Assembly (NCBI GenBank): GCA_022771765.1
Contig: JALELN010000099.1
Coordinates: 1 to 35,523, forward strand
Direction of reading: 5' to 3'
DNA: 35,523 nucleotides
Source: Lachnospiraceae bacterium
Lineage (GTDB): Bacteria; Bacillota; Clostridia; Lachnospirales; Lachnospiraceae
Shown here: positions 8,080-35,019 of the stretch, one piece after another
Layout of the letters: each line of letters starts with the position of its first letter
Numbering within the stretch: position 1 is the first letter of the stretch
Position numbers and translations under genes: made by a program
The notes under the pieces: model-generated
The model's input: the letters and a program-made list of their open reading frames with translations, nothing else
Databases searched by the model: none
Told to the model about the DNA's origin: nothing

Positions 8080-8107
8080 TTTGGGGTGTAACAAAATTTT
8101 GCATTGA

Positions 8108-8130
8108 AGCTGTGAAAGTACTGAACAGTT
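8108..8130 (+). repeat. Copy 1 of dispersed hairpin with conserved loop GAAAGTACTGA
   Basis: AGCTGT-GAAAGTACTGA-ACAGTT; same core and loop as 18477-18507 and 34957-34983. Confidence 0.5.
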
Positions 8131-8148
8131 AAAAGGGGGTTAGAACAA

Positions 8149-16625: not shown

Positions 16626-18386
16626 TTGAATAAGGATAAGCAGAACAATTTTAAGCGGGAAACAATAGGGAAGGTGCTGCGTTATGTGAGTGGCTATTGG
16701 TATTATCTGGCTGCGAGTATTCTGCTGGCGCTGGGAGTGGTTGTGCTGACGTTGTCAGTGCCGCTTTTAACCGGTGATGCAATTGATTGTATTGTCGGGG
16801 TGGACAAGGTGAATTTTGCCGCTTTGATAAAGATACTTCGGCTGATTGCGGCGGTTATTATCATCAATAGTATGGCGCAGTGGGCGATGGCGCGTTGCAA
16901 TAACCGGCTTACCTACAGTGTGACAAGAGATATTCGTGATGATGCGGCGGCAAAGCTGCAGCATCTTCCGTTAAAGTATCTGGACGGACATTCGCTCGGA
17001 GACATTACCAGCCGTATGATCTCGGATGTCGACCAGTTTGCCGATGGTCTGTTGCTGGGCTTCACACAGCTTTTTACCGGTGTCATTACGATATTTGGAA
17101 CGTTGTTTTTCATGCTGCGTGAAGATGCGGGGATTGCATTTGTGGTGATCGTCGTGACACCGCTGTCACTGTTTACGGCCAGCTTTATTGCAAAGAAGAC
17201 CTATCATATGTTTCAGGAACAGGCGCGTATTCGCGGGGAACAGACGGCATATATGGATGAGATGGTTCAGAATCAGAAGGTTGTTCAGGCCTACGGGCAT
17301 GAGGAAGAGACCCAGGAGGAATTTGACGAGATCAATGACCGGCTGGAGAAGTGCTCGAAAAAGGCTGTGTTTTTCTCCTCTCTGACAAATCCGAGTACCC
17401 GGTTCGTAAACAATATCGTGTATGCTGCAGTAGCGGTATTTGGTGCGTTGTCTGCAGTGGCAGGCAATCTGACGGTTGGTCAGCTCTCATGCTTTTTGAA
17501 TTATGCGAGCCAGTATACCAAGCCTTTTAATGAGATTTCCGGTGTGATTGCAGAACTTCAGAATGCGATTGCCTGTGCAGCGCGCGTTTTTGAACTGATG
17601 GAGGAACAGCCCGAGCTTGCTGAGGATACGGACGCCGTGCGGCTTTCTGATGTAGAGGGTTATGTGGATTTGGAGCATGTGTATTTTTCTTATACAGACG
17701 AACAGCGCCTTATTGAGGATTTTAACCTGCATGTGAAACCGGGACAGCGTATTGCTATTGTCGGTCCCACCGGCTGCGGGAAGACGACGCTGATCAATCT
17801 GCTCATGCGTTTTTATGATGTCAGGTCAGGTAAAATATGCGTGGATGGTACAGATATCCGCCATGTGACGCGGGAAAGTCTGCGGGAGAGCTACGGTATG
17901 GTGCTGCAGGAGACATGGCTGCATTCCGGCACGATCCGTGAAAATATCTGCATGGGAAAGCCGGATGCCACCGAGGAAGAGATGATTGCAGCGGCGAAGG
18001 CGAGCCATTGTCACAGTTTTATCAAACGGTTGCCACAGGGCTATGACACTCCGATGGGTGAGGATGGCGGAGGACTCTCCCAGGGGCAGAAACAGCTGCT
18101 TTGTATCGCGCGTGTCATGCTGTGTCTTCCGCCGATGCTTATTTTAGATGAGGCGACCAGCTCGATTGATACGCGCACGGAACTGAAGATCCAGAATGCG
18201 TTTGCGACGATGATGCAGGGAAGGACAAGCTTTATTGTGGCGCACCGGCTGTCAACGATTCAGAGTGCGGATGTGATTTTGGTTATGAAGGATGGTCATA
18301 TTATTGAGCAGGGGAATCACGATGAACTGCTTGCTGCCGGAGGCTTTTACGCCACCCTGTATAATAGTCAGTTTGTAACAATTTAG
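16626..18386 (+). CDS. ABC exporter subunit (TMD-NBD), canonical ATPase motifs
   Basis: Walker A GPTGCGKTTLINLL, signature LSQGQKQLLCIAR, Walker B LILDEATSSID, switch VAHRLSTIQ. TTG start after GGGAGGTG. Confidence 0.92.
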   Translation: MNKDKQNNFKRETIGKVLRYVSGYWYYLAASILLALGVVVLTLSVPLLTGDAIDCIVGVDKVNFAALIKILRLIAAVIIINSMAQWAMARCNNRLTYSVTRDIRDDAAAKLQHLPLKYLDGHSLGDITSRMISDVDQFADGLLLGFTQLFTGVITIFGTLFFMLREDAGIAFVVIVVTPLSLFTASFIAKKTYHMFQEQARIRGEQTAYMDEMVQNQKVVQAYGHEEETQEEFDEINDRLEKCSKKAVFFSSLTNPSTRFVNNIVYAAVAVFGALSAVAGNLTVGQLSCFLNYASQYTKPFNEISGVIAELQNAIACAARVFELMEEQPELAEDTDAVRLSDVEGYVDLEHVYFSYTDEQRLIEDFNLHVKPGQRIAIVGPTGCGKTTLINLLMRFYDVRSGKICVDGTDIRHVTRESLRESYGMVLQETWLHSGTIRENICMGKPDATEEEMIAAAKASHCHSFIKRLPQGYDTPMGEDGGGLSQGQKQLLCIARVMLCLPPMLILDEATSSIDTRTELKIQNAFATMMQGRTSFIVAHRLSTIQSADVILVMKDGHIIEQGNHDELLAAGGFYATLYNSQFVTI

Positions 18387-18437
18387 AACAGGTCGGAGCG
18401 GTACCGCGCAGACCGTGAGAACATGATTCAGTAGTAC

Positions 18438-18473
18438 AAAAATGCCATTGCAAAGCAATTTTCATGCATTTTT
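18438..18473 (+). terminator. Terminator-like hairpin after the ABC operon
   Basis: AAAAATGC-(ATTGC-AAA-GCAAT nested)-GCATTTTT. Confidence 0.55.
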
Positions 18474-18476
18474 GCA

Positions 18477-18507
18477 ACGGATCTGTGAAGGTACTGAACA
18501 GATCCGT
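18477..18507 (+). repeat. Copy 2 (best copy) of dispersed hairpin
   Basis: ACGGATCTGT-GAAGGTACTGA-ACAGATCCGT: perfect 10-bp arms and an 11-nt loop. Confidence 0.75.
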
Positions 18508-18597
18508 CAGTTTGCGCATTAGACACGCACGGGCCGTGTTGCGGTGCATACTATAAACTAGAATTTCCGACAGCCGAGGCAGGCATTACTTTCCATA

Positions 18598-21438: not shown

Positions 21439-21465
21439 TAGGACAAACAGCATAAAATAATATCC

Positions 21466-21607
21466 CTTATTCAGAGTGATGGAGATACATAGGATCTGTG
21501 AAGTCACGGCAACCCCATGATTGGAAGGTGCCAACCTGAGCGAGAAATCGAACAATAAGAGGATTTGATACCGCAATCAATCCGCTTATTTCAAGTGGAT
21601 TTTTTTT
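21466..21607 (+). ncRNA. SAM-I (S-box) riboswitch with terminator
   Basis: Aptamer CTTATTCAGAGTGATGGAG...GTCACGGCAACCCC...AAGGTGCCAACC...GAGAAATCGAACAATAAG. Terminator AATCCGCTT-ATTTC-AAGTGGATT-TTTTTT. Located upstream of metK. Confidence 0.95.
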
Positions 21608-28830: not shown

Positions 28831-28890
28831 TAGGCACTAGCTGGACACAATCCTAATAAATAATAGAATAATCGTAATGATTTTGCGTTG

Positions 28891-29191
28891 AAGAGGAATA
28901 GTACGGAACGGACGTGCCTTACAGAGAGGAGATCAATGCTGAGAGATCCCCGGTGACGAGTCCCGGAACCTGCCTCGGAGCTTTGTGCGAGCGCTTTCGG
29001 GCAGTCGAAGCACAACGTGGCAGCCGCGTTAAGGGTGAATCGAGTGTATGTATGTGAGAGAAGATACAGGTCAGATCGGGATAAACAGAATGTTGCCTGT
29101 GAGAACGGATCGCGTCACATATATGAACAAGGGTGGTACCGCCGAGAGAATCGGTCCCTGTGTGAGGGATTGATTGTTCCGGCGGTTTTTT
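28891..29191 (+). ncRNA. T-box riboswitch (tRNA-Pro responsive) with terminator
   Basis: AGTA at 28900, stem I AGAGAGGAGATC...GCTGAGAG, GAA-CCT-G specifier at 28966-28971, T-box AAGGGTGGTACCGC at 29129-29142, terminator ACCGCCG...CGGCGGTTTTTT. Confidence 0.93.
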
Positions 29192-34890: not shown

Positions 34891-34956
34891 TTGTAGCTGT
34901 TTGAAGCGAATTCGGATCATTTATGTTCACAGGCTGCGATGCGGCTTGAAAATATA

Positions 34957-34983
34957 GTATCTGTAAAGGTAGTGAACAGATAC
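34957..34983 (+). repeat. Copy 3 of dispersed hairpin
   Basis: GTATCTGT-AAAGGTAGTGA-ACAGATAC: perfect 8-bp arms and an 11-nt loop. Confidence 0.7.
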
Positions 34984-35019
34984 AGGTTATATTATTATAA
35001 GTATACAGGAGGGAATGAT

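Follow-up and report, generated by a model that had tools for sequence, protein, structure and literature searches.

How does one short hairpin come to stand at three sites of a single contig, with a conserved loop and with arms that differ from site to site and still pair? The window analyzed here is a stretch of 35,523 nucleotides from a Lachnospiraceae bacterium (contig JALELN010000099.1), and it carries exact CTGT-11 nt-ACAG cores at 8110–8128, 18483–18501, and 34961–34979, where chance would give 0.04 per window even with up to three mismatches allowed. An earlier note, made from the sequence alone, had claimed the core and a loop of exactly 11 nt for all three sites, and both are present at each of them. 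The arms it listed are also correct as sequences, although they do not follow the order in which it gave the sites: ACGGATCTGT/ACAGATCCGT belong to the 18477 site, GTATCTGT/ACAGATAC to the 34957 site, and AGCTGT/ACAGTT to the 8108 site. The note left the choice between a regulatory RNA motif and a small mobile intergenic repeat. As described below, the second of these stands: the repeat has inverted ends, it duplicates 8 bp of its target, and congeners have the site empty.

The element that carries the motif

The host genome (2.37 Mb, 223 contigs) contains 17 exact copies of the pattern CTGTNANNGTANTGAACAG, the genome-wide search that had been suggested, and none of the reversed control. Inspection of the flanks revealed a longer repeat, of which many of these hairpins form the right end. 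The aligned copies define a short, non-coding element of about 133 bp (range 78–335 bp, mostly 131–135 bp), bounded by terminal inverted repeats (TIRs) with a 12-bp consensus, GTAACTGTTCAG on the left and CTGAACAGTTAC, the last 12 bases, on the right. From the left end, the family order is hairpin H2, with variable but complementary arms, the spacer CGTAAGAACATGATTCAGGAG, hairpin H3 with its inner stem, and finally H4, which is the motif itself: GTAACTGT-GAAGGTACTGA-ACAGTTAC. The motif hairpin is the right end of a larger mobile element and no free-standing unit. The right inverted repeat is CTGAACAGTTAC, so the conserved “loop” consists in part of element end.

The window contains one full-length copy of 131 bp, at 18375–18505 on the forward strand (whole-element profile match, E 9.9e-42). 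Its left TIR, GTAACAATTTAG, occupies 18375–18386, followed by H2 at 18391–18414 (GGTCGGAGCGGTACCGCGCAGACC; seven of nine pairs with changes on both sides across the family) and H3 at 18435–18476 (TACAAAAATGC...ATTGC-AAA-GCAAT...GCATTTTTGCA). The outer stem of H3 was read from this copy, and its inner stem has both-sided changes in three of five pairs across the family. H4 lies at 18479–18505, with the inner arm GGATCTGT, the loop GAAGGTACTGA, and the outer arm ACAGATCC, which is the right TIR. An identical 8-mer, GTCAGTTT, flanks the copy at 18367–18374 and 18506–18513. The hairpin at 18477–18507 has a 10-bp stem, and its two outermost pairs take GT, the first two bases of this duplicated target; the stem is therefore not wholly element sequence.

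The other two window hairpins are old, decayed insertions, both on the forward strand. The one upstream of spoVG retains the right part of H3 and H4 (8096–8133; profile positions 129–166, E 1.2e-7), and a search for an intact left end or a target-site duplication (TSD) around it found neither. Its core is present in one congener locus (L328), degenerate in another (L327), and absent from five more (L329, L330, and L332–L334). The remaining hairpin corresponds to H4 only (34956–34993; profile positions 138–175, E 1e-4); no TSD was found for it, and the sequence GTAGCTGTTTGA, near 34893, may be its degenerate left end.

Variation within the family leaves the ends in place. In a scan with fixed ends, the ends and the duplications persist in elements between 78 and 335 bp long. 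In a variant of about 186 bp (L011:1338–1525, L020, L023, and L033), H2 has about 50 nt more, which form a long extra hairpin. A sister type with the ends GTTACTGTTCAC (L068:1501–1633, L135:7186–7328, and L180:5883–6015) has the same architecture, with 8-bp TSDs and an 11-nt loop in its right hairpin (GAACGGAGTGA). Its TIRs, in contrast, are of the subtype GTTAC...CAC.

Insertion, target sites, and spread

Is the window copy an insertion? It interrupts an ABC-transporter gene at its last codons, so that the description of the three sites as intergenic is nearly right and fails only for this element, which starts inside the end of the ORF. When the flanks were joined and the congeners were searched, five of them (L266, L267, L269, L270, and L271) had the uninterrupted site, with the target present once as GTCAGTTT, GTCAGTTC, or similar. 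At the empty sites the transporter ends in ...SQFAH*, while in the window the ORF (16626–18386) runs into the element and ends in ...SQFVTI*, the TAG of the left TIR now being its stop codon. The five empty sites and the changed protein end are direct evidence of insertion.

The duplicated target is a property of the family. The two flanking 8-mers are identical in 45 of 77 copies and agree at seven of eight positions in another 15, together 60 of 77; with shuffled partners, these rates are 0.06% and 0.54%, together 0.6%. The counts are slightly flattered, because the boundaries were partly chosen by the 8-mer match, and the fixed-end scan gave the same picture. The preferred target is AT-rich and starts with GA (TA|GA, then AT-rich).

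Two identical 236-bp copies, with a much enlarged H3, lie about 1.3 kb apart in opposite orientation at L152 (6184–6419 and 7713–7948). Each has its own perfect TSD, different from that of the other, which indicates recent movement. The genes that they flank are host-like and include no transposase. The copy at L007:1489–1645 spans the start of a coaBC-like gene; an open frame leads out of the element into that gene, which may now take its start codon from the copy.

How widely is the element distributed? The host genome yields 41 BLAST matches, and in other gut Lachnospiraceae, too, the copies can run to dozens. The note had suggested that related genomes could carry similar repeats, and the pattern occurs in six of nine congeners and, patchily, in 22 of 298 sampled Lachnospiraceae genera, with up to 48 matches in one genome. 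Blautia, Oliverpabstia, Eisenbergiella, Murimonas, and Clostridium fessum are among the carriers. A class-level sample of 148 genomes gave no match outside the host genome. Taken together, the inverted ends, the 8-bp target duplications, and the empty congener sites identify the element as a MITE, and it has every feature of a MITE that we looked for, including ends in common with autonomous elements.

The candidate transposase

Which enzyme moves the element? Starting from L226, one of the IS66-family loci of carrier genomes, and using its protein as the query across 299 Lachnospiraceae genomes, we found several IS66-type elements, all outside the host genus, whose ends match those of the MITE. 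L226 itself consists of a single transposase ORF between the ends GCAACAGTTCAG and GTAACAGTTCAG, with a perfect 8-bp TSD (TAATTGGA), and it resides in the same complete genome (AP025576.1) as the MITE copy L118. L242, found by this search, is a single-ORF element with the ends GTAACTGTTCAGAACCCCC, while L235, L236, and L238, likewise single-ORF, have the ends GTTACTGTTCA[C/G]. L235 also has a perfect 8-bp TSD; for L236, L238, and L242 the ends match and no matching TSD was found in the assembly. Against the IS66 model NF033517 (cut-off 180 bits), the L242 protein scores 222.6 bits, above the cut-off, and those of L226 (130), L235 (161.9), and L238 (161.8) fall below it. The ends of the sister MITE type fit a different subset of these IS66-type ends, such as the left end of L235. 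At L226:2389–2493, a 105-bp mini-element (GTAACAGTTCAGACGCCCC...GGGGCGTCTGAACAGTTAC) adjoins the IS66-type element and has the same TAATTGGA duplication, as if one target had served both.

Shared ends and, in some cases, 8-bp duplications make these single-ORF elements the likely movers, and the MITE is probably mobilized by an IS66-family transposase of the ISBst12 type. This link is drawn from end sequence and TSD length rather than from activity. ISDge4, of the ISBst12 group, has the TIR GTAACTGCTCAGCA and an 8-bp direct repeat (PMC12898284). The group thus resembles the MITE in its TIR, where GTAACTGCTCAG is close to GTAACTGTTCAG, and in the length of the repeat. It differs in having a single transposase ORF, whereas the MITE encodes none, and the ends of the MITE and the IS are alike over only the outer 12–15 bp or so. 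We saw none of the internal hairpins of the MITE, the inner arm of its right end included, in the IS ends examined. The classical IS66 elements of the genus (L205 and L208, with GTAAGCG ends) were considered as movers and rejected, as their ends do not match.

Fragmented draft assemblies tend to lose IS copies, and in the draft assemblies of the host and nine congeners, which are of this kind, the search for an intact transposase between exactly these ends found none. At the congener locus L021, a 335-bp element with the ends GTAACTATTCAGAACC and GGTTCTGAACAGTTAC appears to be an L242-type IS shortened by deletion. The proposed cycle would begin with a single-ORF IS66 transposase of the ISBst12 type binding both ends of the MITE. 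The enzyme would then cut or copy the element, which would be joined to target cuts staggered by 8 bp. We hold the MITE explanation as a whole, including the predicted ISBst12-type IS66 mover and the decayed window remnants, with high confidence.

Numerous small, imperfect, intergenic palindromes could also suggest REP- or BIME-like hairpins moved by an IS200/IS605-type (Y1, RAYT) transposase, and six of the ten genomes of the genus do encode Y1 transposases. The host genome, however, has no Y1 gene, and no element ends lie near any Y1 locus of the congeners. To our knowledge, Y1 enzymes give neither 8-bp target duplications nor long TIRs, and the family has both; membership in a TSD-less, Y1-dependent class is thereby rejected, and we regard this origin as having next to no chance of being correct.

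Covariation of the hairpins

The arm covariation noticed in the motif is real, and it extends to two more hairpins of the same element; further copies and covarying arms, the lack of either of which would have told against the motif, were thus both found. In 28 non-redundant elements, 96.3% of the stem cells are paired; both-sided changes are seen in 12 of the 22 pairs and in 70 cells, against 19.4 cells in shuffles. The independent events are fewer than 70, because cells count sequences and subfamilies share changes. The hairpins covary across genera. When the left end is paired with the right end instead, there are no both-sided changes: the right end covaries with its inner arm and not with the left end. 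In the window copy, for example, the right end GATCC fits the inner arm GGATC and not the left end GTAAC.

Do these structures serve the host as RNA? Covariation in three hairpins would suit a structured regulatory RNA, mobile or not, acting in sense on the next gene from a 5′-UTR or an intercistronic position, as would two further observations: copies between codirectional genes are mostly in sense by simple ORF calls (61 sense, 13 antisense), and G-U pairs are somewhat commoner in the stems than A-C mismatches. The mean folding energy, however, is equal on the two strands (−51.8 and −51.2 kcal/mol, p 0.40), so that strand-specific conservation of structure is lacking, and a model of target preference alone, which is partly circular, predicts about 2:1 in favor of sense. 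Private mutations in 59 copies of the genus hit the H2 and H3 stems almost as often as unpaired positions (6.9 and 11.1 per kb, p 0.14), a difference that had appeared as stem protection after insertion in 25 copies (p 0.003) and was not upheld in the larger set; only one of 24 assignable stem changes is compensated. Rfam gave no match for the element even at E up to 5, and an unsystematic look revealed no link to one gene class. The Rfam scan of the window gave only a SAM riboswitch at 21464–21561 and a T-box leader at 28879–29162, both above the gathering scores and both elsewhere. A terminator scan over the window copy found none. An association of the targets with promoters was not convincing (−10-like sites near 24 of 60, and 16 in antisense). 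Because folding favors neither strand and the stems of resident copies are not clearly protected, the data give no support to a host RNA role, and the regulatory half of the original suggestion is very improbable; a modest orientation bias is left over without explanation.

The covariation is better attributed either to the copies that transpose or to template switching at palindromes, two accounts that the present data do not separate. In the former, the internal hairpins would be retained in lineages of copies that still transpose, and not for any service of the resident copies to the host, for instance through recognition as single-stranded DNA or a cruciform. In the latter, an ordinary MITE would owe its matching arms to a DNA process that corrects quasi-palindromes by template switching; this account competes only over the origin of the covariation. 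The lack of strand asymmetry in folding fits such correction, as does the lack of covariation between the left and right ends; transposase binding alone would favor identical TIRs. The inner-arm bases just outside H4 are also associated with the first two TSD bases, as if flanks had been copied (p about 0.025 each, uncorrected for multiple tests), but this association is weak. Moreover, selection seems to have acted on the conserved 11-nt loop and on the H2 arms, which are specific to subfamilies and have conserved CACTTGCTG-like tips. We therefore consider template switching a real possibility, if somewhat less than an even one. A bolder proposal is that the hairpins are working parts of transposition, the right end being recognized by the IS66-type transposase or a host factor as an extruded hairpin, in single-stranded or cruciform DNA. 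It would then be the inner arm, and not the left end, that the right end has to fit. This we think unlikely; if true, the ends of a DDE transposon would here be recognized in an unusual way.

Short MITE-like repeats are known from other bacteria, and we set two beside the present family by description. ERIC/IRU elements of enterobacteria are about 127 bp long, dispersed, intergenic, and strongly self-folding, with 7-bp TIRs and TA termini, and with reported orientation-dependent effects and reported effects on transcripts (PMC2229807). Our MITE is likewise dispersed, intergenic, and self-folding, but its GTAAC ends are 12 bp long and its TSDs 8 bp, and the reported effects on transcripts are those of ERIC. 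RUP of Streptococcus pneumoniae is a short MITE whose mover, IS630-Spn1, was inferred from shared TIRs (PMC2229807), the same reasoning as used here; RUP has an IS630 mover and a TA target, whereas our element has a predicted IS66-type mover and an 8-bp AT-rich target. In the open-access literature, which was our scope as distinct from ISfinder and subscription papers, we found neither this family nor similar IS66-type MITEs described, and a MITE review does not mention IS66 (PMC10969869). Literature matches to the end sequences looked, from the titles of the papers, like chance 12-mers.

The family accounts for a large class of intergenic hairpins in the Lachnospiraceae that screens based on covariation would mistake for new regulatory RNAs. 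It also ties hairpin MITEs, at the probable strength given above, to IS66-family elements, for which we found no such MITEs described. Finally, its copies constitute a natural data set with which selection for structure can be separated from template switching at palindromes.
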